Assembly: GCA_031213475.1 (NCBI GenBank)
Contig: JARUPZ010000034.1
Coordinates: 5,102,547-5,166,546, forward strand
Source: Nereocystis luetkeana
Lineage: Eukaryota > Sar > Phaeophyceae > Laminariales > Laminariaceae
Direction: 5' to 3'
Length of the DNA: 64,000 nucleotides
Made by a program: the position numbers and the translations under genes. This document shows positions 2,250 to 62,400 of the stretch, piece by piece (position 1 is the stretch's first letter; each line of letters starts with the position of its first letter). The notes beneath the pieces are model-generated. The model searched no databases and had not been told where the DNA came from. It saw only the letters and a list, made by a program, of their open reading frames with translations.

Positions 2250-4480
2250 CTCTTGCGCTCCTGGGCCATGCAGGCTTGCCATTCCGCGCCTTACCGCCAC
2301 CTAGGAACCGCGCGCACCCTACGTATGCTCGAACGTTTCTTCTACTACTGGTGGATCGGTAGGAGCATCTGCACCCGGTGGTGATAACGAAACTGCTTGA
2401 AGGGCCAAGCACGGAAAACGTCACGGCAGACGGTCCGGCGGCCCATCATCACATTGCTCCTGCGAGAAGGACCCGGCATCGCCGTCAGCGTCGACTTTTT
2501 CTGCCCTCTCCCGGTGACGCCTCGAGGAAATACCTACATCTTGCTTTTCACTGATTGTTTCAGCCCCCGAGCCGACATGTACGCCGTCACTGCGGCAGAG
2601 TTCACCGCTGAGGGCACGGCTAACACTCTCGTCAACCGGTGTATTCCTCTCTGGGGGTGCCCGCGCAGCATCCTCTCGGATAACAGCCTCCAGTTCTGCT
2701 CCAAGCTTTCGCACGCCGGACATCAGCTTCTCGGGGTTTCGCAAAATTGACACCAGCTCCTACCACCCAAACGGCAACGGTGGGGTGGAACGTGTAAACC
2801 ACAAGATGGCCCAGATGCTGGCAATGCTCGTCAACGAGCTCCAAAACAACCGGGATGAACAGCTCCCTCATGTCGAATTTGCGTACAGCAGTTCGGTCAG
2901 TGCCGCCACGGGTTTAGCTCCCAACGAGGTCGGCACCCTCGCCTCCCTCTCACGATTTTCGAGCGTGCTGGAGTCGCCGGCCACCAGAGCTTGGCCCTGC
3001 GACCTGGCGACGGATCGCCAGCAGCGCGCGTACGATATCGTCCGCGAACACCACGCCCTCACTGCCGCTCGCGTGAACCACCGCAACTCCGCCCTCCCCG
3101 ACGCTCTGCGTCCACTCTCCAAATTTAACGTTGGCGGCTGGGCGTGGGTGTACAAGACGGCGGCCACCATCCACCAGGGCGCGAAGCCCGACACGGACGC
3201 CAAGGCCCTCAAGGCCAAACTCTCCCTCAACTGGACAGGCCCCTACAAAGTTCTCGCAGTTGGCCCCTGCTCCGCAGCGGACGCCCCGGACGGATTTCCT
3301 CTCGGGGCAAAGCTCCTGTATTTGGATCTTCCTTCCGATATGCCCGGCGCGGGTGCTCGCCGGCGTGCATCAGTTCAACGCTGCAAGCCCTGTGCCAACA
3401 ACCCCCACGACCGTGGCGGCATGCCGAAGTATTTGCCAGCGGGGTTGACGCAATACGTGCTCAACAACTTCTCCAAGAAATCCTCCCCGTACCACGTTAC
3501 CCAGGACGACGTTTCGACCCCTCTTCAACGATTCGAAGTGGAAAAGATTACCGGACACCAATCGGTTCGAGGTCGAGGTGGCGCCATCGCGGTGATATGT
3601 ACGAGACGCACTTCAGTAGACAGGACTATTATCCCGCCCATCCCGGGAACGAGAAATAGACCTTCAGCTTTCTCGCCACGCAATTTTGCGCTATGCTTGG
3701 CCGGCACCCCGAACCAGCACCGCCAAAACCGACCGCCTGTACCGCCGAATGAGAATCGGCGCGGCACAACGGGAGCTCTCTCGGAGTAACGGCGAGCGGT
3801 TTCTGGCGCCCGGCTATGGCTGCGTATCGTACGCCGACCGGCTTCGCCGATACTGCAACACCGTGCTTCCCAACGGGGCCCACTTTTCGGACAAGGGCAA
3901 CGGCGGTCTGTGGTGGCTCGGGAAAATCAGCGCGACTACGCCGACGGGTGGAGTATATTCGGTTCGAGTTTTGGACGACCCGGGACTGTTATAAGGATTA
4001 CCTCGGGCTGGGTAATCGATCGATCTTTTACCCCTATAACTCAGTAGGTAACACCTTCACATTTGACGTCGTCCAGGTCACGGGTTCGAACCTCACTTCG
4101 AACGTTTCTTTTTTTACAGAAACGCTTGCGCGTGCACACCTAAAAAAAACACATCTCCCTGGTTCCCCAGGTAATGAAACGAAGCGGGTACGTCAGCGTA
4201 CGGACGTATACGGTTCCGACGCCCCAAAGACCCCGCCGTTCAGAGGGGGGGAGAGTGTTCTAAGGATTACCCTGGACTGGGTATTTGATCGGTTTTTTAC
4301 CCCTATACCAGGTAGCTCAGTAGGTAACACCTTCACAGGACCCATCAAGCTTCCTCTTTCTCCGGCGCGCTACACGACTTTGACGAAAGCTGTACGAGGT
4401 TCTTGGTGTCTGAAAATTCACTTGGCTAGTAGCGCGGTTGCCTGGGGGGTCCAGCGTAACGTAGATGAATCTCGAGACGC
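2250..4480 (+). pseudogene. Ty3/gypsy retrotransposon pol 3' part: integrase and C-terminal tail, broken
   Basis: This is the relic of an integrase, which inserts the element's cDNA. It begins with an HHCC-like zinc region (about 2280-2400) interrupted by adjacent TGA TAA stops at 2382-2387, with one Cys lost. The DDE core follows: first Asp in AVSVDFF (about 2490), second Asp in SILSDNS (about 2680), and Glu in NGGVERVNHK (about 2790). A +1 shift occurs near 2735-2750 and others near 3595 and 3660. The C-terminal region (FNVGGWAWVYKTAA..LNWTGPYKVLAVGP) is an SH3-like tail. A long extra domain follows, ending LDDPG, is split by the TRIM at 3987-4337, and resumes GPIKLPLSPARY. Reverse transcriptase and LTRs were not found. 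Confidence 0.9.
3987..4337 (+). mobile_element. Complete TRIM (miniature LTR retrotransposon)
   Basis: This is a 351-bp insertion in the gypsy pol frame, flanked by the 4-bp direct repeat GGAC (3983-3986 and 4338-4341). The 5' LTR is 3987-4061 (75 bp, TGTT...CACA). The 3' LTR is 4256-4337 (82 bp). They are diverged but colinear and differ in length by a 7-bp insertion that turns TA into TACCAGGTA. A purine tract AGAGGGGGGGAGAG (4242-4255) abuts the 3' LTR, and a tRNA-complementary segment follows the 5' LTR. It has no protein-coding capacity and must have used another element's enzymes. Confidence 0.93.
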
Positions 4481-5100
4481 CCCCGTGGGTAGCCGGTTTT
4501 CGCTTCTCGGCTGTTCTCGATTTTTTTTTTTCTTGACGTTTTCGTGGGCTTTCTTTGGGGGTGTGGCTTTTCTACTTATTGACGTTTCCCGAGCTTTTGG
4601 GTCGGGGGGGGGGGTTCTGGCAGGAAGGTGTGTTCCTGGGCTTTTTTCTTTTTTTTTCTTTCTTTGCCTTCGTTGGGGATGGTTTTTTCGTATTTTGTCC
4701 TGCCTATCGCTCAGTAGCGCGGCTGGTCTGGTCTGGGTAATCTGGCCACTAATTTGTGACACAGGACGCGTTTCCAGAGTTAGTTGTGGTCCGGGTTTAG
4801 GTGGTTTTTGGCATCTATCTTCCGTTTTATTTTTCTTCTTGTTTTCGATATTCACTCTTTGCTTTTCCATGCATCTTCCTCGCCTCCCCCCCCCCCCCCC
4901 CCGTAGCGGGTGACATGGCGATGGCTTGCGTTGACGATTTCCTTCCTGCCCCTTCAGGCTAGGTCTTCCTTTCAAAAATTTTTAACGTACCTTCCCGGCT
5001 TTTTGCCTTTCTGTTCAGAGAGAGGTGTGGGAGTGGGTTTTGAGGATCCGCATCTTCGACTCGTGTTCTTCTGTCTAACACCCGTGAGCGTCGGTTCGGT
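4481..5100. other. Gypsy 3' flank, T-rich
   Basis: T-rich sequence downstream of the pol relic, possibly 3' UTR or LTR, with a 16-C tract near 4890. It ends in a diverged copy of the TCTAACACC...GCGTCGGTTCGG sequence seen inside the neighbouring inverted repeat. Confidence 0.35.
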
Positions 5101-6828: not shown

Positions 6829-8000
6829 GATTTCGAAAGACTGCTCTTGGGATACAAGATACAAACATAGAAAAAGTAGCAATAGGAATAATAGTAATAG
6901 GAAAGGGTAAAAAGCACACGTAGGCAAGATGGATGCGATCCTAACAGATTCGCACCTTGACACCAGGATTAAGAGATGTATCCTGATGAATGCGATAGTA
7001 CGAGAAGGGAACGCGAAGCTCGTAAAACAGTTGGAAACAGTACAGATGGCAGTGAGTGGCTGAATAAATCCTAAGACGCTCAAGTACGACTATTACTAGT
7101 AATACAAGCAGTATTAAAAACAGAACTGGTAATAATGCATCCACTCAAGACCAATAGACACGAGGAAGTTGAAACAGCAATATAAAGTGAGGAACATACC
7201 AAGAAAGGGGTTGCCAGCCATATAGCTGGTAGAGCTGTATGGGAGAAAGCCACAAAAGGGCGAGCTGGAACAAGGTAGGATAGCGTAATTGAGAAAACAT
7301 GGAAGGACATATAGGGGGGAACCAAGAAGACTTGATGTCCGCCCGGAAGTTTGGGAGGTATAAGGCAGAAGTAGAAGGAAGGATAGGAAGAATGGAAAGG
7401 GTAGCGCTAAGATAGACGGTGGAATCGGAAAAAGACTTGGAGATATACGGGGGGTTGAGCGAAGGAATAGGAATGAAAACGTATTTGCACGACCCAATGG
7501 ACTTATTCGCGAAAACGCAGGAACTGAGATTTCGTGTAGGTGACCTGGACCTGCCAGAAAGAAGAAAGAGGCTTTTACCGGTAGTAGCTGGGAGGAGGAA
7601 ATAGATGCACAGATGTGCTCGTGTTGGCAATGCCACAGAGTAGAACTCACATAGTAGGAGAATGTGAAACATAAAAGGAGGAACGGGATGTGTTAGAAGA
7701 TATGAGGGGATATAGACGAATGTGACATGGAGGAGTTTGGTACCCAAGGCAAAAACGAGAAAGCGATTGATATCCTAGGAGATGGATGGTGACCACAGGC
7801 GGCCAAACAGGAAGGGATAACATTATAGCAAAAAAACTCTACCAGGTATGTAATACATGGAAACAACCTAATGAGCGCCAAAATGTTAGGAGGTGTCTCT
7901 ATTAGGAGTAGGAACGGTGCTTGCTCCGTCTCTAAAGGGATGCGTTGGTCAATACCAGGTAGTCAATTGCCCAAGATAAGGCAAGCAACAAATGAGTACG
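6335..8000 (+). pseudogene. LINE reverse transcriptase relic
   Basis: This decayed non-LTR retrotransposon retains QGVAEGCTLSPNLFNI (about 6470-6520, RT palm motif) and YADDF (6609-6623, the catalytic Asp pair). C-terminal fragments follow: ILTDSHLDTRIKRCILMN near 6930, FRVGDLDLPERRKR near 7530, and GGVSIRSRNGA near 7890. Several frameshifts and stops break it. It ends AATGAGTACG followed by a C tract at 8000, the same terminus as the other LINE tails in the window. TACCAGGTA scars occur at 7840 and 7950. Confidence 0.88.
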
Positions 8001-8048
8001 CCCCCCCCCCCCCTCTCCCCTGCCTACGCCTCGGAATTTGGGAAGCGT

Positions 8049-9449: not shown

Positions 9450-11220
9450 ACATGGCGCGCAGTTTCTGGGGTGGATTTACAAGCCGGTATCCTGCCGTAA
9501 GCGTGTTCAACCGCGAGTCCCCCTACCCCCTACCCCCGCCCACCCCCCCCCCTAACGCCGTCACAACGACCGCCGATACGATCCCACCTTGACGGACGCG
9601 CTAGGAACGGCAAACCGAGTAGTGCTGTCGTATTAATAGTACAAAAATGCAAGCATGGTGTGTTCAAGCGGAGGCGAGATCCGTCCATAACGCCCAACCA
9701 CCGAAAACACAAAATCCAAAATCCAAAAGTCCGAAACTCATAACGCAAACTCAAAACGCAAATTCGAAACTCAATATGCAAATTATCCAATAGAAAGAAG
9801 AAAAAAAAATCCAGAGCGGAAAAACCCACAGGAGAGCTAGAAAGCCGCACAAGCCAGTACAGGCAGGCAGACACGCAGGGAGTGCAGCAGAGGATACTCA
9901 ACCAACTGTCGCCGACCAACTGTTAATAAAGAAAAGAGGAAAAAATAATGAAATAAAGAACGAACGAAGGAAAGAAAAAGGATAATGAAGCACCAATCAA
10001 GAGACCACTAGTTGTAGTGGTGCTACGGTGGGCATACGTTTTCGTTTTAACGCCTGGCGGGGTCCATAGGCGATTCCAACCCAATCCGGTCCACCCTATC
10101 CTCTCTCCCATTCCATCCCCTTTCCACGCCCGCATTTTGGTACCGCCTTCCATCTCTCCTCTCCCGTCATTTTTCCCGCAACTACGCCAAACGCCCTGCG
10201 TCGCAAAAAAAAGAAGATAGAACCGTGCCTTGGGGGGGGTTACAGAGTCTTTTACGGCAGCCACGAGCAGGCGCCGCAACAGCAGCAACAGCAGCAACAG
10301 CAGCAACACCACCTTTATCATCACCATCACCACCACCACCACTAGCTCAAAACCCGCCCAATACCAGGTACTATATAATATATAAAAAACAAACAAGATA
10401 CATCACGCCTATCTGTTGTTTAGCGCGCTACTACACCGTGAGGGATAAGATGCGCTACACCCCGACCAAGAAAAAAAAAAAAAAAAAAAAAGCGAAGAGA
10501 CAAAAATTACAAGCACGTACGTACGTATGGTAAACCTAATTCACTGCAGACCGGTCAGTAGATCGGCCGATCGCAACAACGCTAATTGCTCCGTTCGTAC
10601 GTGTGCCCGTGCCCTCCGTTCTTGTCCCTCCCAATTTCCAATTTTGATTGTCGATTTCATTCCCGTTTTCCGCTGCCGTTTTTTGCCTCCATTTTTGTTT
10701 CCGTTTCCGCTTCCGTTTCCATTTTGAGTCGTGCGAGTCAAAAGCCAGACTCCCCCGCATCGCAATTATCCCTTCATTTATCTCTTCCCTGTCCCTCGAG
10801 ACAGGGAGAAAATAACTCTTAGAGTACCACGCGATGCCGCGAAAAGCCCAGCAACGTTATACCCGTGCAACCCCCCCCCCCCCCCTCCCCCCCCCCTCCC
10901 ATCCCTCCCGACATCCTTGGAAACCCTGTCCATCATCACCACCACTCAAGACAGGAGAGATAAAGAAATGACGAACTATACGATGCCGTGTTAAGCCCAG
11001 CAAAGTTACACCCACCCGTACAACCCCCGCCCCTTCCCCCCCCCCCCCCCTACACCCACCAATCTGGCCGTGAATATAACAATCGTTTTGATACTCACAC
11101 CAGAATCCAAAACGCGTACTATGTTCGCGGCCATACTGGTAACGGCAAACCTCCTGTTCCATCGCCTTCATCGCTACTACCGTAACACCTTCTGTAGCAT
11201 TTACACACCCCGTTCGTCCC
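9450..11220. other. Low-complexity intergenic DNA
   Basis: Poly(C), poly(A) and triplet runs, with no recognisable gene. (CAGCAA)n occurs near 10280-10310 and a 20-A tract near 10470. Long open frames are C- or G-tract artefacts. Confidence 0.5.
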
Positions 11221-11224: not shown

Positions 11225-11348
11225 CCGGGTGGGCATACCTGGTATGTAATACCTGGTAAGAATCAGGACCAAATATGCTGTGCAAAACACATGGGGATAA
11301 CCGAGTTTTGGGTCCATCGTGGGTCCTGATTCTTACTACATTAGCCCA
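11225..11348. mobile_element. Family C MITE with two TACCTGGTA scars
   Basis: Inverted arms GGGC...AAGAATCAGGACC and GGTCCTGATTCTTACTAC...GCCC flank about 50 bp. The left arm has TACCTGGTA twice (11237 and 11249) where the right arm has plain TA. Confidence 0.7.
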
Positions 11349-16192: not shown

Positions 16193-19100
16193 AACGGTAC
16201 CCTACCCTGCTTGTCGTAGCTCACGCAAGGGGGCTGGGATAGACCTTGGCCAAGCTTCGTCAAACAGGTTGAAACATAAAACACTTCGTACACAGTATTA
16301 CGGAGGGCCATAGTAAATAGGACCAGATATGGTTAGTAAAAATAGCGAAATATGTACCAGGTAGGTCTTTGTGTGTGCCGTAGGTCCTACCAGGGTATTT
16401 AATATGGTCCCCCGTAAGAGTCGTCCCTACGTAGCACCGGATGAGTATAATATTACGGGGGACCATAGTTAATAGGACCCAATATTGTTAGTAAAAATGG
16501 TTATATATAGTTTTTTATGTATACCATAGGTCCTATTAACTATGGCCCCCCGTAATAATGCCGGCTACCCGATATAGTGCCGGTGGAATCGCTTGGAACA
16601 GACAGGAGGAAAAAAACCGTGTAGCATCGTGCGGAATCGTGCCGGCTGCCGCTACGTATAGTGCCGGCTGCCGCTACGTATAATATCGGCTGCCGCTACG
16701 TATAGTGCTGGCTGCCGCTACGTATAATATCGGCTGCCGCTACATATAGTGCCGGCTGCCGCCACGTATAGTGCCGGCTGCCGCTACGTATAGTGCCGGC
16801 TGCCGCTACGTATAGTGCCGGCATTGCATGTATATGGACCACTACTGCACTACTGCACCTTACTTTACACCCAGGGAGGGGGGGGGGGGGGGGGGGAGGC
16901 GGGGGGGGGGTGCGATGTGTACATGCGGCACACAGATGGGTGAGCGCCTAAAAGCTTCCGAACAAAAAAAAGGAGAGAAGGGTGTGCACGGGGCGAGGCT
17001 GTGGATAGAAGACCTCCGTCCGGCTTCAACCAAAAATTATTGAAATATACATATCTAAGACCTATGCCAATGGTACAGCGAAGTTGCAATAAAAAGTTTG
17101 AATTTCAAAGATACCCGCCAAAACAAATCAGAACACGCTTCCTGTGGGCCACCTGGAAAAAAAAAAAAAGTTCCTAACTTTAACTTTTGGAAAAGCCCGA
17201 AAAAAAGCAAATCTGGGACCGCTGTTGGGCCAACATCGGCTTGAGAAAAACTCAGGCCGATCTTTGGTTCGAAGCGGCGAGATTCCGAGTCCTCGACAGA
17301 CATCGATCAACAAAACCAACGATTGCGTCATGAATTCTGAACGGAGTGCGCTCGTTAGGGGCTCCGATCCACCCTAGGGTCACCGTCTTCACACCATGGC
17401 CGGTGTCATGTGGCGGGAGCTGACCAGGCGTGTGATAAAAAAACATTTGGCCGCTGGTTTGCACAAAACAGAAGACAAAACTTCTCCATCCGTCTCGAAT
17501 GGCAAAAAATAGTCTTTTTTTCAGGTTTGGGAGGATACCGTAGGACGCCGCCGGCAAGCTCTCGCCCCCAAGACCATGGATCCGCCTCATATCTTCGAGG
17601 CCGTCATCTATACTCGTTGGGCTTGCCAGATACCGAGTGGGTTGGCTGTGGGCTGAGTCTATGTCGAGATCGAGCGTCGATTGTCGCACGAGCTGGTTTC
17701 GATCACCGTGTTGACAAATTGCGACCAGAAAAACACAAATTGCGCCGCCTGCAGCCGTTGGGGAAAAAAAAGGAAAAATCAAACATTTTTCTCTTTTTTT
17801 CCCACAGCGGCGGTACGAGAAATTTTTCGGCTGTTTTTTGAAAGCGATATATTTGAAAAAAAACTTTTGAACTTCGCGTTGCCATTGGCATAGGTCTAAC
17901 CCCCTACTCTTGTGGTAATTAATCCTTGTAGAACCGCAGTCCCGTTTTGGGGACAAACTACTTAAAATTTGAGTGGCTTGTCCCAAAAACGGGACTGCGG
18001 TTCTAAAAGGGCATTGACAGGACGTGTTTCGAGAAAAAACTGGTTGGGGCCAATTTGTTTGCGGATCTTTGAGGTCCCTTTTCGATGGAATAGCGATCAT
18101 CTCAGCCCACTCGAAAAAATAGAATCATCCTGCCGGGTAAATACGTACGCAACTGTCGCGGGAAAAAAAGTGACCAAAATTGACTCTTTTCAGCCGCAGT
18201 GAAATTCTTGGGTGTTCTTTTAACTCCGTGGGTTGGTTATACAGCAAACGGCGTAACTTCTGATTGGCTACTCGTACGAGATAGTAGTTAGTGCCTTCGA
18301 GTTCCACTTGTTTTTTTAGGTTTAGCCAGTCAGCTCCCCTCCTGTTTATCGGCTTTTAAAACAATTTTATGACTCAACCAAGATTTCGATTTTCGCCAGG
18401 ACCCCAACAAGCACCACTGTGCGGAACGTGCAAGGAGCGTGTAAACACACAGTAACTACATGTATGAACACTAAACGATCCGCATGTGTTCTGCCCAGAG
18501 CAATATATCACCAGGTATGTACTTGACGTCGGAAGGGGAAGGGGGGTGGAGGGGGGGGGGGGGGTACTCATTTATTGCTTAGCTAGCTTGCCGTAGTCAT
18601 TTGGCCATCGACCACGCATCCCTTTCGAGACGGAGCACCGTTCCTACTCCTACTATTAATAATACTAGAGACAACTCCAACAGTTGGGCGTTCATTACGT
18701 TGTTTCCATATATGACATGGTTTTTTTTTGCTTTATTTTATCTCCTTCCTGTTTCGCCGCCTGTGGCCACCATGATGGGGAAGGGGGGGGGGGGGGGGGC
18801 TGTAGAGACCTTAGCTAAGCTTCGACGAAACAGTTCACACGTCGGAGAGATCTATCGTCTACAGATAGATCACCTACAGATAGATCCTGACAACTACAGA
18901 TATCCTCACCTGCGGCTATGACAAGGTAGTGCAGGATCTGTATGAAGCACAGATCAGTATGAAGCACAGATCACAACCCAGGAAACATTGCCTTATCCAT
19001 TAGATCATGCAGACAAATACGGCTCCCACCCAGCCGCATGAGTTACGGGTCTATGGTCACACGACTACGCCCATGCATGATATCAAGTGCACTTCCTTCC

Positions 19101-41600: not shown

Positions 41601-44600
41601 ACTCTTGGCAATATCAAGTCGCCAGTTTGCAATTACGAACTAAACTCAATCGTGGACCTCTGTCATTTCGCATAATTTGATGTACTTTTTTCCTTCCTGA
41701 GCGAGCGTAGCGGGCGGCGTAGGCCGCCCGCGGAGCGAAGCGCCTTGTAATAACCTACCATGGACCCGAAGGCCACGCACTCTCCTGTACAGATCATCCA
41801 GACCCCTGACCTGCCGATATGATGTGTTGTGCGGGATATGTGTAGGAACAGTTCCCACCCAGGAAACTGTGCAACATCATTAGCTTGTCGGCTCCCACCC
41901 GGCAACATGAGCTAGATCAATACCTGGTACAGATCAGGAACAAATGATCTGTCCTGAAAGATCTAGATCATCACGTGGGAAATATCTCCCCTCACCAGCC
42001 CGATGTGCGCATGGTTCCCCTCCGGGGTGTGGTCGGGTTCTCACTGGGACGACGCAAGATTGAGGGTGCATGCTGCATGGGTTTGTAATATCTATATTTT
42101 TGGTATCTGGCTTGTGTTGTCGTGTTCTCGTACCCGGTACGTTGGGATTTCACTTGCTTCACCGTCCTTCGTTTACGATGATTTTCTTTTCATTTGCGGT
42201 GATTTTTTGGGTTTCTCAGTCCCAAGCACAGCAGTCTGTGACCACAGAACTTTTATCTTTTTCTGCTCTAGGGTGAAGAACCAGGACGGACACTGGGTGT
42301 ACTGATGCAGTTTTTTTTTTTTTTTTGCTCATCCCATTTATTATCTTCGCACATCTTCCTTCTCTCTCTCCTTCCAACTCGTGACTCAGATCCGGGGTCA
42401 CATAGCAGGCTCTTCTACCCCCTTCCCGCTACGGTACGTGCCTTCATTTTTAACGCGAGAAGATTTCAGCCTTTTCTTCCTTCGTCGACTCGCATCGAAT
42501 TGTGCCTACCCACGCTGCAAGGCGCTCTCCACAATTGAATCCTTTTTTATTTTTTATTTTTGCAAATAAAGTCAAATGTCCGACCCACCTGGGGCTCGAA
42601 CCCAGGACTCAAACACAAGTAGAATTCGAGGTTAACCACTTGGGTAGAAAGAACGGTCTGAGGTGTAGACAACACACAGTACACAGGTGTCTTGCTATTA
42701 ACCGAAGATGTCAGGAGACGGTACTTTTGCCCCTTGACAGACGGTGTCGTGGCAAATGCCTTGACGGGCAAAACTGGGGTCACGGAGTACAAACCCCCGT
42801 TCTTTGGCGACGCCTCGCCATGATATTGAAAACTTCTACCAAGTACTCGTACATCCTTGGTTGTTTTTTCTCGACCCTTTTTCAGTTTTTGGCGTCAACG
42901 TGTGCAAATCCACAACCACTAAGCGGATATTCCTCCGCAAGTCAAAATTCCCGAAGCGAAGCAAACGCTGTTGCCTAAATATACCAGTTTTAGTGGGGGG
43001 GCGCCAGTCGAAGGATCAAATCGTAGTCTCCTGCAGTATTGGACGGAATTATGGGGAGTGCTTGCTCATTGGTATGAATACCCAGCCGTACGACTTCCAT
43101 CCAACAGATAGTGGGAGCATATTTGGTACGTACAAAGTACCACCCTGTCCCGAAATATGAGGACCGTTCGTATTGACTGTTATTAAAAGTATATAAATAC
43201 TCCCTATCTTCCGGGACGGAGTGGTATTTTGCCAACAGGTATAAACTACCAGGTACCTACAGTATACCATATAGCACTATCCCCCTAGGGTGGTAAGATA
43301 ACACACCCCCCCTCGGACGATTTTCAAAGCTGGGTTTCTCACCAACGGGGAGGGCGTACTGAATACGCCGAGCGATAGTGCGTCTACGCAACCTTCTCGA
43401 CGAAATATTTCCAATGCCACCATAGTCGTTATGCGTGCCCCCCATGGTTTTATAAAACTATGAAATACGTCAGCTGTGAGTTCGACTGATTAAATAGTTG
43501 ATGCTCAGCTCTGCTTTCAGGAAACCGGGCCTGAAATTCGTCCCAGGGGGGGGGTGGATTATCGTATCACCCAGTGTGATAAGGTACATCGTCTATAACC
43601 TGACAAACAGATAGAATTAATATTAATAGTAGTAGTGACCACGTTACGCGACGACGGCCTCGTACTCGTATTGTATCGTCACGGAAAAATGTGTAATGAT
43701 TTGAAATATTATTTGGATCATACAGTAGTTAATACCAGGTAGGACCTTTTGTATACATAAAAACCTACCTGGTATATATTTAACCATTTTTGATAACAAT
43801 ACTTGTCTTACCAGGTATTAACTATGGTCCCCCGTAATAGCAAAACTCGTCCATACCAGTAAACATACCACGCACGCACCACGCACCAGCGCACCAGGTA
43901 AACACGCATGCAAACATCGGCCGCCGACATCTATTATATGGGGGAACACAGCAGTAATCATGACCAAATAACCTTAGTGAAAACACTGGAATATATAGGT
44001 TTTAGTGTGTACGATGGGTCCTGATTACTGTGGGCACCCGAAAAAATAATAACTATTACGGGGGACCATAGTTAACAGGACCAAATATTGTTAGTAAAAA
44101 CGGTTGAATATATAGGTTTTTATGTACACCATAGGTCTTATTAACTATGGTCCCCCTTAATACCAGTACGTTGTACCTGGTATTTCATACCAGTATAAAC
44201 TATTACGAGTAATACAAACAACTACCAGGTACCTGGTATTACCGGGGATCTTAGTTAATAGGACCAAATATTGCTCGTAAAAATGGTGAAATATATAGGT
44301 TCTTACGTCTACCATAGGTCCTATTAACTATGGTCCCCCGTATTATTAATAGCGGGGAACGGTTGTAGCTGTAAAAACCCTCACAAGACCATATGATACC
44401 AAGTACCAGGAAGAAAACTCCCAGTATCTTTACCCTGGTTTTACATTTCAGGAACCTTTCGTACCAGGTACTCGAACGTATATATACCTGGTACTCTCAG
44501 CTGGACTACATACGTACGTACTCCGTTCAGGAGGTACGAGCAGTACTCTCAACCAAAACGTGCCAGATATCAATCCGTCCGCAATTATAAGTTTCATTTG

Positions 44601-46529: not shown

Positions 46530-47990
46530 GAGTATACCTACAGCGCCGGTGGTGTGTGTCTGTTGGAGGATGCGGTGGAGATGTGTCTCGCTGTGTGTCT
46601 ACCCGGACACACTGTCGGTTGTTCTAATGACAGCGGGAGGTTTTTTCCCCGGTGAAACCTCCCTGGGCCCTGGGTCTTCCCTTGCACCCCAAGTGATGGT
46701 GTTGCTTTTTCGAGAAAAAGATAGCGGGTACAGGCTCGTACAGAAGTAAAATCGTCACCAGTACAGGGTAGTCGAGTTTGATGAGTACGAACAGCAGTAC
46801 CAGGTACGAATGAAAGTTGTTTCATACCAGGTACGACATGCCACGCATCGCTTTTGCATGTGAGATTTTACTAGGAAATCTGAAATCTTTACCCCATCGC
46901 GGCCCCTCACGCACGGCAGTCTAATAATGCCCCATGGCACAGTCAATTGCTGCTGCTGCAGTCGAGAGTAGGTAGAACGGGAACCGCGCGCTAATCAATA
47001 CCAGGTACCTGGTAGTCTCTGTTTGTTCTATTGGGAGGGATAGGTATACTCGTACCGTGGTGTACCTGCTTGGTTGGTACGAGGTATCTGTGGTACTTAC
47101 TCGTTCGTGTACCTGGTACACTTCGTTACTGGGGCATTGTTGTTGTTTGGCACAGAGTCGTTGAGACAGATTGTTCTTCCAACCGATCGAATCATACGTC
47201 ACACTGCTGTTATCACAGAAAGAGTTACATACCTGGTTGGTATATATGCACAGCAGCACAGTATGTAACTAATTGTCTACGAGCACTTATAGTAGCAGCT
47301 ACGAGTATACTGCCTGTAGTATAGACCTGGTATAGGTTCGTAGTTCCGTTGTGTGCACCACAGGTCTGCGGGGTATACACACATACATGCATGCATGTCA
47401 ACAACGAGAGACACCCGACCGAGCAAGTACACACGTCGAACTATTTTCACTCCGTCATACATAAGACGTACCACGTAAGCAAAGCAGAGGAGCAACTTGA
47501 TTAATTTATGGTAGGTAGGTAAAACTTTAGATGAATGATTAATATTGAATAGTAGTATTAAATAGTAATGGTAGTAATATAGTATAACAGTAAATGAAGT
47601 GGGGGGGGGGGGGCTAAAACATTAATTTAAAAGCATTGATCGTTGCCCCCCATCGAGCACTCCTTTTGTTGTGTGCAATGCATCTACTCATATACTCGCA
47701 CTCACTTGCTCTTGATCCCGAGGCCACGACGATGGCGTTTCACACGGGCACCTATACCTGGACATTGTGTGGAAAAAGAACGAACGCCTATACATATATT
47801 ACATACCAGGTATATAGTACCTGTGGCACTTTATAGGCATCCTCAGCAAGCAGTACATGCGTTTTGATCCCCCTCGGAGCACTCGCTCTCCGTATATTGC
47901 AATGTGTCGGATAACGACAACAAACAGACTGCCACATATAATAAGGTGGTATTAGTAGTTGCTGTGTCCTACGGTACTACGTATACTTAT
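46530..47990. other. Intergenic DNA, no gene recognised
   Basis: Dense in TACCTGGTA/TACCAGGTA scars (46798, 46826, 46999, 47110, 47804). AT-rich TAGTA repeats near 47510-47590. Confidence 0.45.
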
Positions 47991-47991
47991 A

Positions 47992-48070: not shown

Positions 48071-48297
48071 TACTATTTAATACCAGGTACTTAATTATTA
48101 TTATTTCCCTTGCCATCCGACAATGTGCAACATGATCTTCAACATTGATCACTCATAACTTTCCCGAAAGAAGAAAACCTCGGAAACAAAAGGAAACCCA
48201 TGCACCAAGTCTACCTCCCTTCTGTACCAACTTTCGGCTTGTCTACTCCATTCTCTGTCCTTGCTCCTTCCTTCTCATTACGTTCTATTCTTAAATC

Positions 48298-49050
48298 CTA
48301 AGCTGCATCCAAGCTCCATCCCCACGCCATCGGTGTGGGTCTGTCGTCCCTCACCCCCCTGTTCCTTCTTCCTTCTTGGCGGTCCCTAAGCTGGAGCTTG
48401 AACCTCGACACCCTCCTCGAGTTGGCGATCTGTGTGGTCACCGGGACCGTTTGGAGCAGGCGTTCCTTCACCACCCCCGTCCTTGCCATCGACCCACCAT
48501 CCCTCCCCCCCACGACGCTAGCTGCAAGCTGGTCGATGAAGTTGCTGCCCTCTACCCCGAGGCGCCCAAAGCTTTCCACCGCTAAGGTGGCTAGTTTGTG
48601 GCTCCGCTCGTCGAAGGACACATGTCCCGGACGCGCGTAGTGTTGGCGCTTGCGCGCCTCGGAGGTAGAGGCAGCGGATCCATCATGATCAGCGCTGCCT
48701 CCTCGCAGGTGGGCCTGCGCTTGCGGGTCTGCATGGGTGACGTCCAGCAGGATGGACTTTTCCCTGTATTCCCTGTTAGGAGCGTCCCGGAGACCTCCTG
48801 TCCTGACAACGATGTCCATCCGCAGGTTCCGGTCTGCAGTGAACGGCTCGCCGCTCTCTACTTGGTGTGGGATTCCCAGCCGCTTCAGCGTGCGGGAGAT
48901 CGCGTGAACCAACGGTTGATGTTGGTTTACCTGTGCCCCTGCTCTGGAACAGATGCGTGCGTGGCGTGTGTGTATGTCGACTGCGTCGCAGCAGGGGCAC
49001 CTCACTACCGCGTGCTCCTCGATCCCCATGAAGCGCCTTCCCATGCCCAC
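48298..49050 (-). pseudogene. R2-like non-LTR retrotransposon, C-terminal zinc knuckle and endonuclease module
   Basis: This is a 250-codon open frame. A CPCC...H..H..C zinc-knuckle-like motif (residues about 19-35) precedes a restriction-like endonuclease domain: MDIVVR, then KSILLDVTHADPQ, where the Asp-rich core resembles PD-(D/E)XK folds of R2/CRE-type retroelements. HYARPGHVSFDERSHKLAT and FGRLGVEGSNFIDQLA follow. In intact elements this module nicks target DNA for reverse transcription. The reverse transcriptase is absent or scrambled beyond 49050, where related pieces lie in shifting frames. The frame ends naturally (MAWGWSLDAA). It lies between AMPK beta and the unknown gene. Confidence 0.75.
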
Positions 49051-49275
49051 GAGCTCCGCTGCTGCTATTATACGGAGCGAGTCTGTTTGCCTCGCCCGAA
49101 GGCAAGCAGTGGCTCCTGCTCCTTGTAGACTTCTGTAGCGAGCTTTGGCGAAGGCCTTGGTCTCTTATTGTAGGGTGGTCTCGATTCAAGTCGGGCTGCA
49201 ACATGTTCGATACATTTTGTCCGAGAGCACAAAAAAAAAAAAACAGAGGAATCACTGAACATAAACAACATACTA

Positions 49276-49329: not shown

Positions 49330-50255
49330 ATGAACATAAACAACATACTACTACTAATAACAAGAACGAAAATTCCAACGGTCAGTGAGTGCCTGCCGTG
49401 TGTCGATATCACAAAAAGTTACTTCTATTACTGTATGTATAGTATGAACTACGCACGCGTGACGGCAGAGGGCACTCCCTCACTCTGTGCGTCATAATAT
49501 CACACATTCCAACTCCTACAACAATACCTGGTACAGTACATGGCATAGTGCAGCAACTCAAATGTCAATATTCTTAATAATATCTCGTGCTGGTTAGTGT
49601 GCTGTTGTTTCCGGGCCGAGGATCAGATAATGGATAATGTTTAGCTGCGTTCACTGTGTGTTATGATACTTCTTGTGTATATACTGTAGGTTGCACTACT
49701 GCTGTACTCCTGTACATAATACCAGGTGCAGTTACTCGGACTGCACCTGTGGTACGAGTAGTAACTCCAGTTTTTGCCTGCACTTCGTACCAGGTAGGCA
49801 TAAAGTTACATCATGCATAAATCAATCCGCGTCATTCCGAGATGCTGCCACAGGACCGCGGGGGGGAAAGTTTCCACGGCGCTTATTGGCTGCAGTGAAG
49901 AATACTGCTGTGCTGCGGTTGTGTAATTATGCTTATTAATATTAATAGTAGCGCAGGCAACATCCATCCAGCCGCCCGACGAAACAACCACCACACGTCA
50001 ACACTAAAGCTCAGAAATGTGTACACACATCGAACCATATTGCTACCTAAACTCCTTCCCAGTGTCGAAATGAAGACCAAACCAGCGCGTTGGGATTTCT
50101 GGACGAAATTACCAGAAAAGGCTGTTTTTCATGTCTGTATTTACTTGTGGTTTTAGTATATACCCCCCCCTCTGCCTGGGTCTCGCGAATGAATAGAAGT
50201 AGAGGGGTATCGGGAAAACTTTTTTCGTGGACCCCTGATCGGACAGGTCATCGAT
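49330..50255. other. Intergenic DNA, no gene recognised
   Basis: Scars at 49526 and 49788; otherwise no repeats or domains recognised. Confidence 0.4.
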
Positions 50256-50880: not shown

Positions 50881-52225
50881 ATTAATAGAATAATAGATTG
50901 TTTTATGGTATCCATGTTTCCCTCTCTCTGCTGTGCCCATCTGCTGATTTTGAAGGAATGCTAACTGACTATAACCTATATATCCGAAGTTGATGGAGCC
51001 CGTGCTCGGCTTCCATGTGGAGAGACGAGAGCCGCACAGTCGTTGTGACGCCCCGCTCGCCGCCTCTCCGCGGTTCCCGCATGTTCCTGTCGGAAAGGAG
51101 GAGACCGGCTCCTTGGTGGATTGATGGAATGGTTGATATAATTGATAGATTGGCTGATTGGTTGGTAGGTCGACCCTTCCAACTAAAATGTTAATTACAT
51201 GCGTGAGTTTCGATTCATGGCGATCATCCCTTTTCCAGGTGGAAAAAAAAAGAGGTGGGTTCCTCTCCTCTGATTCTGACTAGTAATAAATAGCACGTGG
51301 CGAGAGGTCCGGCCTCATCATCAGTCAGCTTCCACCAATCAATGACCTCTCCCCGCTTTTCGCAAAGTGCTCCTCTTTCTGACCGAGCACACTGTCCTCG
51401 GTTATATGTTAGAGCGCTTGATGCAAGACCCCCCCCCCCTCGAACTCCCCGCGACTCCGACCAACCAATCCGCTCCTCCCCCCTCCACAATAGGCAGTCG
51501 AGGCATTCTACGATGTAGATCCACCCTAATTTTTCTGAGGCTCCTCACATAAGGAGCTCCATACCTCACCCGAAAACTGACTTGAGCGAAAGTAACATTG
51601 CATCCCGATAAATGATCCCATGGCCCAAGTATACAAAAAACGTCTTTTTCCGGAAGAAGGTTGGCATTCCGACGATTTACCCCCGTCACTGAGACAACAG
51701 TTCAGCGGCAATGTGCTACCTCTATCGTAGAACGCGTAAGTCGCTAAACGAAACGGCAGAGTCGACAGAGGCCAACCCACACTGGTGAGAGACTCATCCC
51801 ACCCTAAGGGTCGCACGTGTTGGGACTTTTTTTGCCGACGGGTTCACCTCCTCAAAAAGTGAGCAACTAGCGATTGGTATCGCAAATTTTGCTACTGTAC
51901 GTACCAGGTACCAGGTAGTATATTTTGTTTTGGAACCAATTCATAGGAGCTGTTTGGTCGGGTTCCGCTAACAAAATTCTTCGAAGTAATGTTTCGGGGG
52001 GCATATTGGGCTCCTCGTGTGATTGGAGAGCTCAGAAAGTGAAGCACCAGCCCTATAATGCGCTCAGAAAATAAGCCACCACCCCTATATGGCACTACCC
52101 CGATAAGACACCACCCCTACACCAAGACATCGCCCCCCCCTGCCTACGACATGTACCACGACATGGGGGCAGTTCTTTTTGGCCAAAACCTTTCTGGCTG
52201 ACGGGGTTCCTCGGTCCAGGAGCTT
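50881..52225. other. Intergenic DNA; small dispersed repeat 51525-51690
   Basis: GATCCCATGGCCCAAGTATA and GGAGCTCCATACCTCACCCG also occur, inverted or diverged, near 34560-34740 and 60190. No gene. Confidence 0.45.
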
Positions 52226-53894: not shown

Positions 53895-53931
<37 letters not shown>

Positions 53932-56408: not shown

Positions 56409-56455
<47 letters not shown>

Positions 56456-59400
56456 CGGTGCGCAAAAAAGCTCAGTCTGAAATCACGCACGCCACCGCGC
56501 GAGACGCTTGCGAAGGGGTTAGCGTAACGGCAGAACGTACGGCGTCTGTGTCTGCGCCAAACCTCGGGGCTGCTACATACGTACGAACAGTATACGAAAA
56601 GGCGAGAAAGGAAATTGGTGCGCGCGACGTGAGCCATCCCGCGGTAGGGGTGCACCAGACGTTCCTGAGCCCCTCACAATAGAATCTGACTCGATACAAT
56701 ACTTGGGAAAAAATGGTTTGCGCCACCCGACCGGCACTTGTATGCGCTAGCCCTAAAACTAATATACGGGGAGTGAAATTTTCATCCTAACTGCTGGTTC
56801 AATCGGTCAGAAACCTTCCGCCCAAAAAGTGCAACCCCTACCGTGGGGTGCGCGCGACTTGAACTCTCGACACTGCCCGCTACCTCCCTCTCCCCGAAGT
56901 TGAGCAAACTTCAGCACAATGTTTCGCAGGGTAGGAAGCGTTTTCACAAATCGGACAGATCAGATAGATCATTCCCACAGTTGATGACCTATAGGTATTT
57001 CAGGGCGGATATATCATTTGTCCCTGAGCTGTATGATCTGTATGATCTGTATGATCTAGCTCATGTTGCCGGGTGAGAGCCCTATCTAACGTGTATGATC
57101 CAGCGCCTGGGTTGGATCTGTACTACTACAGATCCTGCGCAACCTCTCACAACGGCTGGTTGGGATCTTGATAATCGATTTTTATCTGATCTGTAGATGA
57201 GCTGCGTATCTGTCCCATGTGTGAAACCTTTGACCGCCATGCCTCTACAGTGCGGTAACTGCTGCGGTAGACCGCGATCCAATGTGTGACGCGTTTGACT
57301 GCCATGCCTTTACAGTGCGGTAGCTACAGCAGTTTGGGTCCACACCGGTGTCTGACTGACGGGTCTCCTGGATCAAGGCACGCTCCGATACCTTCCCAAT
57401 CCCAGTAACATTATTACACTCTGACCGGCAATATATCACCCGTTTGATAATATAATTCGAGTGAATAAGGTCACTCGATTTCCGGCCACAGAGCGGTACG
57501 TTTTATTTGTAACAATGGCCTGTTTCGTCGAGTGGCACGCAATGCTGGTAGACATATTTATTAAACATTGTCGATAATCACACTCGGGTGTTGGATGCGG
57601 GATGGACCTCCTCATACCAGTAACCTGGAAATAATTAGGCACAATCCCCCCCCCCCCCCATATTTTATATAGGTTGGGTTGGCGTCGGTCGGCAGCGACA
57701 CTGTAAAACTTGACGCTCACTACGTGAAACCAGGGTACCGTTTTTTTTGTTTTTTTTTTGGCGGTCCCCCACAGCTGGTTGTCGAGTTGGATTCATTTGT
57801 GCGAGGTAAAGAACCTTTACCCAACACTAGTGAGAAGTATTTTATCACGTAGCGTTCAAGGTAAGGCACCCAAGAGCCAGTTACATAGTTATTCCCATCA
57901 TTGCTGTCTCTGGAATTGCCCACACCGGAAATTAAATGAACTCATTGAAGCTGTCATCCATATGCAAAAGTCCGCCTCACAAGCGGTTCTTAGTACGATG
58001 CTGCTCACGCTTCATGCGACTCGCCGGACACCTCACGGCGCTTCGCTCTTGGTGCAAGCAATGCCTACCTGATCGGTGAAAACCCGACATGCTCCGTCCC
58101 GGCATTGTAGGGACGCGGGGGTCTATGATCATACGACTACGGCCATGCAGGAGAACGAGTACATCTCTCCTATCGAGTACACCACCCCCCCCCCCTCGAC
58201 ATATTACTACGGCCATGCACGACATGAGTACACCCCCCCCCCGCGCACCCGGTACCGTAGTCAATAGTCAAGCGACTGCGAAAGGCAAGCCGCAAACCAC
58301 TACGTCCCCACGCCCGCGCTCAAATGCTGGAGCCGTCTCTACTAGGAGTCAGGAACGGTGCTCCTCCGTCTCCAAAAGGGTTGCGAGGTCAACGGTCGAA
58401 CGGCTAAGGCAAGTAATCGAGTGAGTACGCCCGGCTCCCTCTCCCTCGCCACAGGAGCATGCGAACCCACAAAACCGTGAGCTTGCTCCCATCGACCCTG
58501 CTCGGGATACCTCAAAAGGAGCGCTGAGATCGCACAGGTATGGTGCCATCGTTTTTGCAGCGGCTGATTTTTTCCAGAGCAAGAGGGAGGTTGGTTGCCA
58601 GTAACACCGAACGACAAGGCGCCTTTTCCTAGGGGTAAAAAAAAAAGTGGTCAAATAGCCCTCCGAAAAAAAAAGAGAGACGAAAAAAAAACTTTCGGTT
58701 ATACCTGGTAGGTAGCAAGCACTATTGCCGTTCGTTGTCGAGAAAACTATCAATAGCGCTGAAGAAAAACGATCGCACCCTTGCGTTAAATTCAACGCCT
58801 TTTTGCGGAAACCCCGGGGGGTCTCCCTTGATCTCCGAAGCAAATACATCGGGCGGCCCGCTCTCATCCCTGTCTGCAGTGCACCGCTGTACATGTACCT
58901 AAATATGGCCGCAATATTCGAAGTTTTTTTTTCTGTCCCCACGACGGTCGTGCGTGCGGTCTTAAACGGGTTTTTAAGAAAAAAAAAAAACGGTCGTGGG
59001 AAGTTTGAGGCTTGTTATTCTTTCTCAAAAGTTAAAAAGAAAAGAAAAGAAAATAAAAAGAAAGAAGAGAAAAAGGAAACTTGACCGAAGAAACGGGGGG
59101 TCGGGTTTGGAGGCCACATTCAAGATCACGCACATGATATCTAATACCAGATACGCCGTACTGTAGTACTGTAGCTTGCTGCTCAATGGTGCCAGCGAAA
59201 CAATAAACTGAGCTGATATAAGGCTCAGCCCTTTTAGGGCAAACTGCAGCCAGTCCCGTTTTGGGGACGAACTGCTCCAATAGAACTGCAATCCCGTTCC
59301 GGGGACGAACTGCTCAAATAGAACCGCAGTCCAGTTTTGGGGACAAACTGCTCAAATTCTAAGTGTTTTCTCCCCTAAACGCCGACTGAGCGCAGGCCTC

Positions 59401-62400
59401 AAAAGGGTTATACCGGTAGTCTGGGTAGGTACGAGGCAAGGGGTTGCTACACAACTCGTGCCTTAACCCCTAAAGGGCTGCAGTCCCGTTTTGGGGACGA
59501 TTTACTTAAAATTTGACTTGTTTGTCCCCGCAATGGGACTGCGGCCCTAATTGGGTTAACCCGTTTAGGACTGCTATCACGTTTTGGGGACGATTTACTT
59601 AGAATTTGACTAGTTGGTTCCCAGAATGGGACCGCGGTTCTAAATGGGCTAAGGGCGAAGGCCAAATATCCCGCTGTTCGGAAGGGGGGGGGGGGGTTGT
59701 TGTAAGACTTACTGTAGTTTGGGTTGGCATGTGGTCAACCTGTTTACCAGCGGCTCCAGCATATAAATGAATACCTTAGCAGAGCCTCGACGTCAAATTT
59801 GGCTTTTCTTGCTATTTACGGAGATCCACAGCAGTGAATAGTACCCGCAAAACCCCGCAAAAAAAAAAACGGTTTCGTGCATTTATGTCGAGAACCACTG
59901 CGTGAGTCGAAAAGGTTGTCTGTGTGAAACATGCGGTTAGTGACAGGCTTCCCATCGATGCTACATTTGTATTATTCAGAAACACATCTGGAAACCTCTC
60001 TCTCTCTCTCTCCGTTTTTGGGCTTACCACTCTGTCCGGAACAATAAACACCGTTTGATATCGGTCTCAGATTCCAAAGGGGTCTTATGTTTTCGAGTCA
60101 AAGTGACAGCGCTACGGTAGCGGGCGCCTTGTTTCTGTTCGGGATGCGCGCTTGCCTTGTAGGGGTAGCGCCTAAATTTTGTGAGGATTTTCACTTGACT
60201 ATAGTACAAGAGCTCCATACATCACCCGAAAAAAAGAAGAGCTCAAAAAGTGCAACCCGATGAACTGCTACGTCAAAGCCTATATATTTAAGTACATATT
60301 AGGTACACTATGAATAATAATATACCAGGTAAAACACTGAAGGTATTCCAACAAGGTTTTGGCTCAAGGAGCCCTGGTCAGTCAGAAACATTTTGGGGCA
60401 AAAAATAGTGGCGATGTATCGTATTCGGCACGCCTCGTTTTTCGAGACGAAAAAAGGCGTCGTCGGATCGATCCGGCGCCTGACAGATTGTCCATGACCT
60501 CTACAAGTACGCCCTCTTAAAAACTAAAGTGGGGGAGATGATCTTAGCATCAGAACTGGATAAAAGTCGTTTTCGGTACGAGTTCGAGTGGAGAGTCGTG
60601 ACAAAAGTAAGGTCCAAATTTTCAAACCTGGAGAAAAAAAACATTGTAACTGAAAAAAACAAGAAAAAAATGATTTTCTTCTTAAACAAGACTGCATGCA
60701 GTTCTCTTATGCCCCCCCCCCCCCCCACCCCCCCGAAGGAGCCCCTTTTAAGGATCTCTGGTCAAAAGTGCAAAAAAAACTGCAGGCCAAAAAAGTGCTG
60801 AATGCCTCTCGTATATATCGCATACCAATCTGGGCGTAAATGTGATGACCGCATAGCATTCATGAAGAGCGTCTAAACGGAGTGAAGGTGTTGGCCTGCT
60901 GACCTTTCGGGGTAAAGGACCGATCGATGACCCAGCCCAGGGTAATCCTTACAACACCCCCCCCCCCTCCCTGAACGCTTATTTTATATAGGATGGGTTG
61001 GCGTCGGTTGGCAACGACACTGTAAAACTTGACGCTCACTACGTGAGCTAGACAACCAGGGTACCGTTTTATGTTTTTTTTCGGCGGTCGCCCACAGCTG
61101 GTTGTCGAGTTAGATCATTTGCGCGAGGTGAAGAACCTTTCCTCCGCACAAGTGAGAATGATCGTATCACGTACCGTTCAAGGTAGGGCACCCAAGAGGC
61201 AGTTACATGGTGCTCCCATTGCTGTCTCTGGAATTGCCTACACCGGAAATTAAATTAACTCAATGAAGCTGTCACCCATATGCAAGTCCGCCTCACAAGC
61301 GGTTCTTAGTACGATGCTGCTCACGCTTCATGCGACTCGCCGGACACCTCACAGCGCTTCGCGCTTGGTGCAAGCAATGTCTGCCTGGTCGGTGAAAACC
61401 CGACATGCTCCGTCCCGGCATTGTAGGGATGCGAGGGTCCTTGGTCATACGACTACGGCCATGCATGAGAACGAGTACATATCTCCTAACAAGTACACCC
61501 TCCCCCTGAACAGCGGAATATTTGGGGCGTCGGTACCGTATTCGGGCGTAATACGCTGACATACACACTTCGTTTCAATACCTGGGGAACCAGGGAGACA
61601 TACGTGTTCAGGGACTCACGCGCAAGCGCTTCTATGAAATAAACGTTCGAAGTGAGATTCGAACCCATGTCCTCCCGACGACGCCAAGTGTGAAGGTGTT
61701 ACCTACTGAGCTATTGCGGTAAAAGAACGATGGATTACCCAGCCCAGGGTAATCCTTACAAAACAACGGCCTTTCTATTTCGGCCCAGAGAGTGGTATGT
61801 ATATCAGTCCTCACTTGTGTCCCCCCCCTCTTTTTTTGCTCACCTCTTTGGCCTCCCTTAGCGAACTCCTTTCGGCGTGCACCTCCGACGAAGGGTTAAA
61901 GGGGGAACCCTCTGGGTAGCAATTCCTCATTATAAAGTCCAGCCTATATAATATATATGAAATAAATAAACAGAAGCAACAGCTGTAATGAGATCGAGGA
62001 ATAGAGAAGAAACTCGTCTTTGCAAGCTGTTGTGTGATGTTTCAAATCGCGGCGCGTACTACTACGGGTTTTGAATGGCCTTATGCAGGAAACATGTATA
62101 ATATATCAGGTATACACATATGTACTGCCGGTCGGTGCAATAAAAGAATGCGGCATTCACAGCAGATACGTACGTACGTACCTGGTACGACATTGGGGAT
62201 AATTGCTGTTGCTACAGCACGCAAAAAGGACGCGCACTTTTGTTTTCGCGTGGAAATGAGGGGGGGGGGGGATAATTCAACGAATTTCGACGAACCAGCA
62301 GGAATGATGAATGAACTAAACCCTCTGCTCAATGAATATGGAGGCATGTATATATCGAGGGGGGGGGCGGGGGGGGGGGGGCTCGATATCAGGTGTACTC

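Follow-up and report, generated by a model that had tools for sequence, protein, structure and literature searches.

A nine-letter, TA-flanked word in the Nereocystis luetkeana genome as the probable excision scar of a TA-targeting transposon

Abundance of TACCWGGTA in the window and the genome

The 64-kb window analysed here (the whole stretch C34:5102547-5166546, contig JARUPZ010000034.1 of the kelp Nereocystis luetkeana) is strewn with the nine-letter word TACCWGGTA, whose central letter is A or T; we call these words scars, in keeping with the interpretation developed below. An exact search finds 47 of them, 21 of TACCTGGTA and 26 of TACCAGGTA on the forward strand. A sequence-only reading of the same DNA had counted about 45 and expected fewer than one by chance, and this expectation is borne out: dinucleotide shuffles of the window average 0.49 copies and never exceed 4, and an order-2 Markov model predicts 0.73. 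Only one of the 48 words of the form TACCNGGTA has a centre other than A or T. Written with W, the word is its own reverse complement, so that one count takes in both strands.

The genome-wide count proposed in that reading was made on 465,085,209 bases in 1,987 contigs and gave 182,395 copies, against 1,744 for the same word reversed, which served as a control, and a Markov expectation of 3,884 from a model built on the sample described next. The number is thus far above expectation, with an enrichment of 47-fold over the Markov model and 105-fold over the reversed control, and corresponds to one scar per 2.55 kb. For the density we rely on the genome-wide count alone; the remaining analyses draw on the window and on a non-random sample consisting of 100 kb adjoining the window and 100 kb of contig C1 chosen where scars were listed. 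The window and these 200 kb make up the 264 kb referred to below, and word counts quoted for 288 kb include some bases twice. The two orientations are equally frequent, with A:T ratios at the centre of 87:96 in the sample and 26:21 in the window.

Gain of seven base pairs at TA and target preference

The direction of change was examined by joining the flanks of each scar over a single TA and searching the product against the remaining sequence, with sites less than 60 bp from an end dropped. For seven of the 47 scars in the window the surrounding repeat aligns with other copies over the junction, and at six of these seven (4306, 16355, 31671, 31906, 43766 and 45011) one or more sister copies read plain TA. 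As a control, 287 sites with other TA-N5-TA words were treated in the same way, and none of the 64 testable ones had a TA sister (Fisher p = 5e-8). Over the 264 kb, 36 scars were testable and 22 of them have TA sisters; for other TA-N5-TA words the figure is 17 of 280 (p = 2e-14). The remaining 14 scars comprise nine with filled sisters only, all on C1, and five with substituted sisters. In the majority of testable sites, seven base pairs (CCWGG and a second TA) have been gained at a TA, as the sequence-only reading had proposed. Its statement that the word always replaces a TA holds for six of the seven testable window sites and fails at 7840, where the sister reads CA.

Individual predictions of that reading fared unevenly. 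Empty sites were confirmed at 31671 and 31906 and in one long terminal repeat (LTR) of a terminal-repeat retrotransposon in miniature (TRIM) at 4306. Three insertions had been described in one copy of a miniature inverted-repeat transposable element (MITE), family B, at 43720-43837; that at 43766 passes the filter, and those at 43733 and 43809 face TA in looser alignments, the latter also TG. Of two insertions placed at 16298-16417, the one at 16355 stands, and the second is not the nine-letter word but the 6-nt variant TACCAGGGTA at 16388. The site at 7953, in the tail of a long interspersed nuclear element (LINE), has three sisters that read TG, AG and TG rather than TA, and the insertion in one arm of a family C copy (11236/11250) is unconfirmed, no sister having been aligned there.

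MITE B allows the independence of these gains to be assessed. The window holds 25 copies, some of them partial, and the same TA is scarred in four. On a tree of 19 of the 25 copies, which has no strongly supported branch and in which the row at 31850 is only partly alignable, the four scars need four changes, and a single scarred clade is rejected (approximately unbiased (AU) test, p = 0.0044). When row 31850 is left out, the three remaining scars require three changes (p = 0.0073); on the half shared by the copies, the four scars again require four (p = 0.0059). The refuting case named in the sequence-only reading, that the word is ancestral in the repeats and TA derived by deletion, thus went the other way, on a poorly resolved tree. 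We regard that explanation, or its variant in which scars are only passengers of repeat copies, as scarcely credible: at the five MITE B sites tested in the window, copies with an empty site are more numerous than filled ones (for example 11:1 at 31906), the four scars at one MITE B position do not form one clade, and 40 of the 47 scars in the window are not part of a repeat aligned over the junction. Copying has nonetheless played a part. An identical filled sister is found at 15 of the 36 testable sites in the 264 kb, nine of them without an empty one, and part of the scars have therefore been copied along with their repeat.

Table 1. Scars and related TA-flanked insertions in the window. 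Entries are exact matches to TACCWGGTA unless stated; sister copies are those aligned over the site.
Feature	Position	Strand	Remarks
Scar TACCAGGTA in one TRIM/LTR copy	4306..4314	-	3 sisters TA, also AA
Scar TACCAGGTA	7840..7848	-	sister CA, not TA
Scar TACCAGGTA in LINE-like tail	7953..7961	-	sisters TG/AG
Scar	10362..10370	-	
Scar	11236..11244	+	
Scar	11250..11258	+	
Scar at MITE B hot-spot TA	16355..16363	-	8 TA sisters
6-nt variant TACCAGGGTA in MITE B	16388..16397	+	12 TA sisters
Scar	20837..20845	+	
Scar	22086..22094	+	
Scar	22303..22311	-	
Scar	22519..22527	-	
Scar	24190..24198	-	
Scar	24206..24214	-	
Scar	25013..25021	+	
Scar	25312..25320	+	
Scar in MITE B	31671..31679	+	4 TA sisters
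Scar at MITE B hot-spot TA	31906..31914	+	11 TA sisters
Scar	34363..34371	-	
Scar	35854..35862	+	
Scar	37628..37636	-	
Scar, then TACTGGTA (CTGG form)	37970..37978	+	
Scar	38063..38071	-	
Scar	41921..41929	+	sisters align with gaps only
Scar	43247..43255	-	
Scar in MITE B	43733..43741	-	one TA sister (looser alignment)
Scar at MITE B hot-spot TA	43766..43774	+	11 TA sisters
Scar in MITE B	43809..43817	-	TA or TG sisters (looser alignment)
Scar	44174..44182	+	sister TG (looser alignment)
Tandem scar	44223..44231	-	TA common with 44230 scar
Tandem scar	44230..44238	+	
Scar	44462..44470	-	
Scar	44485..44493	+	
Scar at MITE B hot-spot TA	45011..45019	+	5 TA sisters
TA insertion of other sequence, TACAGCAGTA	45039..45048	+	9 TA sisters
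Scar	46798..46806	-	
Scar	46825..46833	-	
Tandem scar	46999..47007	-	
Tandem scar	47006..47014	+	
Scar	47110..47118	+	
Scar	47804..47812	-	
Scar	48081..48089	-	
Scar	49525..49533	+	
Scar	49788..49796	-	
Tandem scar	51902..51910	-	
Tandem scar	51909..51917	-	
Scar	58702..58710	+	
Scar	60323..60331	-	
Scar	62179..62187	+	
TACAGCAGTA/TACTGCTGTA words	1172, 23384, 29787, 30390, 39552, 44952, 45039, 49697		

The flanks of 180 distinct scar sites are symmetric and non-random to 7 bp on either side, with A or T at -7 in 83%, A at -6 in 52%, A or T at -3 in 71% and T at -1 in 6%. The deviation is largest at -7 and -6 (chi-squared 146 and 136, three degrees of freedom; 0.31 and 0.25 bits), and the 1,097 other TA-N5-TA sites carry 0.006 and 0.005 bits at these positions, a signal about 50 times weaker. 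The preferred target takes the form W-A-N-N-W-N-R-TA-Y-N-W-N-N-T-W, with a symmetry of the kind expected from an integrating enzyme that acts as a dimer. Tandem scars contribute to the signal at -7 and -6; without them TA stands at -7 in 72 of 328 halves against 25.5 expected, and they were excluded from the flank scoring and from the prediction in MITE B. The leave-one-out flank score averages 1.37 for 147 non-tandem scars and -1.68 for 15,257 TAs (p = 4e-42). In the sample, 47 MITE B copies hold 11 scars at only three positions, six of them at one TA, and a matrix built from 136 non-tandem sites outside MITE B places this hot spot first among its 19 TAs and at the 99.8th percentile of sample TAs; the other two scarred positions score fourth and seventh.

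Scars also occur in tandem at a spacing of 7 bp, with 17 cases against 0.17 for randomly placed TAs. Scars add TAs, however, which makes this null too easy; a hand estimate gives four to five expected, and the real excess is perhaps fourfold. The tandem arrangement implies that scars themselves were hit again. A repeat, GGTACGAGAGGAGC or a near form of it, follows tandem scars at a slightly varying distance in eight of 100 and one of another 100 contexts listed; it may be a preferred target or may itself have been copied.

Imperfect copies of the word give an indication of its age. Allowing up to one mismatch, the genome contains 367,383 words against 66,255 for the control, and the one-mismatch excess is 120,477. 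Set against an excess of about 181,000 exact copies, this would mean, with decay as its only source, that 7-8% of letters have changed (6.9% in the sample). The one-letter transition variants (six patterns, 47 sample sites) keep the target preference (p = 5e-7). The abundance of near-copies indicates a long period of activity for the family that left them and a considerable age for many scars, on an uncalibrated scale.

These observations bear on two other explanations. Programmed or obligatory excision in the germ line or at some life stage, resembling that of ciliate internal eliminated sequences but imprecise, would account for scars that far outnumber any element seen and for their great uniformity (47 of 48 TACCNGGTA words in the window). 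We nevertheless consider it very improbable, since the abundance of decayed scars shows that many are old and inherited rather than remade in each life cycle, and we know of no such excision programme in brown algae. Maintenance of the word by selection, as a binding site, splice donor or methylation site, has in its favour that TACCAGGTA contains CAG/GTA, the form of a splice donor, and that CCWGG is a methylase and EcoRII site. It is the explanation to which we give least credence: the two orientations are equal, seven base pairs have visibly been gained at TA in repeats, and the abundant one-letter variants share the flank preference of the intact word.

Minor products, the proposed excision and the search for its source

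If staggered ends are joined, the product should consist of a prefix of the element end and a suffix of its complement, so that minor products distinguish between possible ends. Ends reading CCAGG would give CCAG or CTGG, CCAGGG or CCCTGG, and CCATGG; ends reading CCTGG would give CAGG or CCTG, CCCAGG or CCTGGG, and CCTAGG. In the sample the first set is seen in excess (30 against 9.9 expected, 7 against 0.85 and 2 against 0.26) and the second is not (10 against 13.0, 0 against 0.85 and 0 against 0.18), the CAGG/CCTG control (TACCTGTA) being a count from the sample alone. Across the genome, TACCAGGGTA occurs 11,422 times and TACCTGGGTA 1,578 times, with Markov expectations of 1,230 and 1,232, and the minor-product word TACCAGTA occurs 46,688 times (Markov 14,339; reversed control 29,541). 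Among 100 of 2,120 scar-plus-end contexts inspected by eye, TACCAGGGTA appears 22 times, seven of them from one repeat, and TACCTGGGTA not at all. The CCAGGG sites carry the target preference of the scars (six sites, mean 2.63, p = 2e-4). The junctions thus point to element ends that both read CCAGG rather than CCTGG, with the first four letters firmer than the fifth. The word TACCACGTA also faces TA sisters, at 44417 and 45021 of the C1:200001-270000 sample and at 56619 of the C34:5000001-5100000 sample; the 10 sites with TACCACGTA/TACGTGGTA show the target preference of CCWGG (p = 0.001), and the word is a further variant product.

The same products bear on the proposal, also raised in the sequence-only reading, of a micro-insertion process, here taken to be one without any transposon in which host repair or a polymerase adds a fixed CCWGG and TA at breaks in TA. 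Such a process would agree with the failure of our searches to find a parent element and with the occurrence of TA-flanked inserts of other sequence (CAGCAG, CCACG), but it predicts neither the symmetric preference over 7+7 bp nor the sevenfold excess of TACCAGGGTA over TACCTGGGTA. Slippage in the CC and GG runs would make these two words equally often, and the excess speaks against it as well. We judge micro-insertion to be improbable.

We propose instead that nearly all copies of TACCWGGTA are very probably scars left on excision by a TA-targeting, cut-and-paste transposon that has CCAGG ends and is cut with a 5-nt stagger. The TA sisters, the symmetric preference to 7 bp on either side and the minor words that fit CCAGG ends all support the excision scar that was one of two possibilities offered in the earlier reading. 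Insertion at TA would duplicate the TA, with both ends reading 5'-CCAGG inward from it. Excision by the transposase with a 5-nt stagger would then leave CCAGG overhangs, 3' or 5', on both flanks. These overhangs would pair C:G, C:G, G:C and G:C around one central A:A mismatch, and mismatch repair would give CCAGG or CCTGG equally often, matching the observed ratio of 87:96, with the second TA remaining. A strong joint of four pairs would explain the uniformity of the scars. The 3-nt CAG stagger of Sleeping Beauty yields its footprint in the corresponding way. The 5-nt stagger is preferred to one of 3 nt (CCA), because the latter would need a letter to be lost nearly always from CCATGG, which is rare (two in the sample). 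Cut-and-paste movement would leave a scar at each move without raising copy number, and scars could therefore far outnumber elements; more than 182,000 events have probably taken place, minus the scars copied inside repeats.

Several observations weigh against this interpretation. In the target preference, the low frequency of T at -1 is common to several word classes, including other C..G words; TACGAGTA shows part of the same preference (58 sites, mean -0.36, p = 4e-5), and other TA-N5-TA sites show a very weak form of it (983 sites, mean -1.44, p = 0.002). At the hot spot of MITE B the centre is oriented alike in five of the six scars, some of which may have been inherited together. Among the minor products, the target preference is not significant at CCAG/CTGG (29 sites, p = 0.14) or CCGG (19 sites, p = 0.65), and these two classes may be mixed; the TACCAGGGTA count takes in repeats, for example eight copies in an array at C1:1.304-1.308 Mb; and in the sample words expected from CCTGG ends are in excess (CCCCAGG 4 against 0.27, CCTGCCAGG 1 against 0.01), while longer CCAGG-end words are not seen (0.27 or fewer expected). 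Finally, no family with TACCWGG ends was found in the window, the 264 kb or a set of 320.5 kb; tandem-scar contexts inspected by eye (100 of 2,120 and 100 of 591) reveal no end in common except in a few repeat copies; and the one significant inverted pair, described next, ends in CCTGG and not CCAGG.

This lone inverted pair is a structure of 136 bp at C34:5077036-5077171 (L025 7036-7171), flanked by TA and with ends TACCTGGGGCTCCATTT and TACCTGGAGCTCCATTT, in which nine of the ten inner letters pair, a value reached in none of 300 null draws. Its end word has three copies in the genome, two within the structure itself and the third at C26:6995681, and so forms no family at that identity. It does not sit at a preferred target (56th percentile), and we saw no copy of the site without it. 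We do not claim it as the parent, but it is a possible relic of a TACCTGG-ended element; if it descends from the parent, the element would have ended in CCTGG and our interpretation of the minor products would need changing, while the scar model would stand.

Other searches for a parent gave little. Inverted pairs of the form TACCWGG..CCWGGTA in the window have their best matches in MITE B or near chance, and none of 127 half-sites in the 320.5 kb convincingly begins a repeat exactly at TACCWGG; a repeat at 55210 of the window starts at TA in one of four alignments, which is weak. The word TACCTGGTG was tried as an element end (eight in the window; 18 against four of TACCAGGTG in 288 kb) and set aside, as the letters that follow it are not conserved; our guess is that its excess reflects a background of splice donors (CAG/GTA). 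A profile search of the genome with PF13358 gave no match; PF01359 and PF17906 also gave none, but these profiles matched nowhere, so that absence is not shown. PF03184 (DDE_1) gave 28 genome matches, of which 12 were fetched, and the ends identified for two families both begin with CAG. One of these, the pogo-like L040:2151-4762, is 2,612 bp long, is flanked by TA, has a DDE_1 match and carries a perfect 24-nt inverted repeat, CAGTGGGGGGCCCTATATAGTGCA. L040 and L038 end in TA-CAGTGGGGGG (24 of 24 letters in the L040 inverted repeat; L038 has the same left end), and L046 and L048 in TA-CAGTACCGG (one end seen). L043 (C34:4444001-4450000) holds an inverted duplication of 1,888 nt, 99.5% identical, with two DDE_1 matches in 325-aa frames. 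Scans of IMG/VR for relatives of a LINE protein and two MITE words found none; the doubled scar occurs there in nine contigs, with two to three copies each, which we take as chance, and phage records gave no match to one window repeat. With the parent element missing, the transposon is something we infer from the junctions; the parent may be rare, extinct, too divergent or split by introns for the searches made.

Other TA-flanked words are also overrepresented. TACAGCAGTA/TACTGCTGTA is counted eight times in the window and 36 times in 288 kb, where 0.18 and 0.97 are expected, with TA sisters at three of 11 testable sites in the 264 kb, and is probably a separate scar class left by another TA element with a 6-nt insert. 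TACGAGTA/TACTCGTA occurs 17 times in the window (for example at 308, 18269 and 44204) against 2.0 expected and 54 times against 11 in 288 kb; we take it to resemble a Minos-type footprint, yet only one of nine testable sites in the 264 kb has a TA sister. TACAGTA was considered as a scar class (104 against 49 expected in 288 kb) and rejected, with TA sisters at none of 17 testable sites, as was TACACTGGTA (window 31637-31646) as an insert at the MITE B hot spot, which is six letters longer than its sisters and shows no clean gain at TA.

Elsewhere in the window, positions 5100-6828 form a large palindrome with arms of 313, 239, 235 and 105 nt that are 98-99% complementary. On the minus strand, an exon-like frame at 32678-33229 matches AMPK1_CBM (glycogen-binding; E = 1.9e-15), and a LINE-type protein is encoded at 48298-49164, with relatives from Undaria, Ectocarpus and Scytosiphon among the best 120 of 334 matches, most of them unnamed.

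A more far-reaching proposal, which we advance tentatively and ourselves find rather doubtful, is that the scars stem from an undescribed transposase lineage with a 5-nt cut and nearly self-complementary CCAGG overhangs. Its excisions would almost always have been resealed by annealing to the same scar, an exit cheap and harmless enough to permit several hundred thousand jumps without amplification or purging, with scars as favoured targets and a parent now lost or hidden; its scars would then be the main record of it. Excision usually leaves little recognisable trace in a genome, and here a single genome gives an excision count, the target preference of a transposase, a spectrum of repair products and their decay over time. 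The scars make testable the rate of traceless transposon exit, end joining in brown algae and the share of small indels near repeats that comes from excision, and they could act as markers between strains.

Comparison with known TA-targeting elements

Mos1 begins with CCAGG, which we treat as a lead and not as a test. The internal eliminated sequences of Paramecium are excised precisely and leave one TA; here, by contrast, 7 bp remain beyond the TA. The Sleeping Beauty footprint, TACWGTA, is a quasi-palindrome in which a central A and T alternate. In that system the cut is staggered, and once the ends are joined the 3' overhangs remain between two TAs as the footprint (PMC7827188). The scars resemble it in lying between two TAs, as from a staggered cut, and in their alternating central A and T; they differ in having 5 nt (CCWGG) rather than 3 nt, in their number and genome-wide spread, and in a parent that is unseen.

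Two features of Tc1/mariner elements are found here, insertion at TA with TA duplication, as far as the scars tell, and a symmetric AT-rich target preference, the latter a feature described for ZB in the part seen of PMC9976928. The pogo-like L040, L038, L046 and L048 of the same genome are likewise flanked by TA and have DDE_1 matches. Their ends (CAGTGGGG, CAGTACCGG) begin with CAG, whereas the scars imply CCAG; such ends would fit TACWGTA and not TACCWGGTA. Among brown algae, Ectocarpus has 17 Mariner-Tc1 families with almost 12,000 copies, and the words excision and footprint are absent from the main text of that source (PMC12477816).

Among the titles and passages that searches of the open-licence literature listed, none deals with a TACCWGGTA scar or with excision scars in such numbers. 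In the portions seen, the footprints of ZB, Passer, Osmar5 and Ppmar2 measure 0-4 nt (PMC7913693, PMC9976928, PMC1925063, PMC9632168), while putative Stowaway scars in Triticeae, such as TACTC...AGTA, come by our own sum to 4-6 nt (PMC1925063). The main product of 5 nt thus lies above the former (PMC7913693, PMC9976928, PMC9632168) and within the latter (PMC1925063), so that a total of 5 nt has precedent. No published footprint met in these passages equals this scar in uniformity or number. There is a parallel in behaviour with plant mariner and Stowaway elements, in which the portions seen describe TA and short end pieces staying at the empty site and the TA being hit again after excision (PMC1925063, PMC9632168, PMC4561436). 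Where those elements leave varied mixtures, the genome of N. luetkeana carries one nearly fixed, quasi-palindromic 5-nt product in about 182,000 copies.

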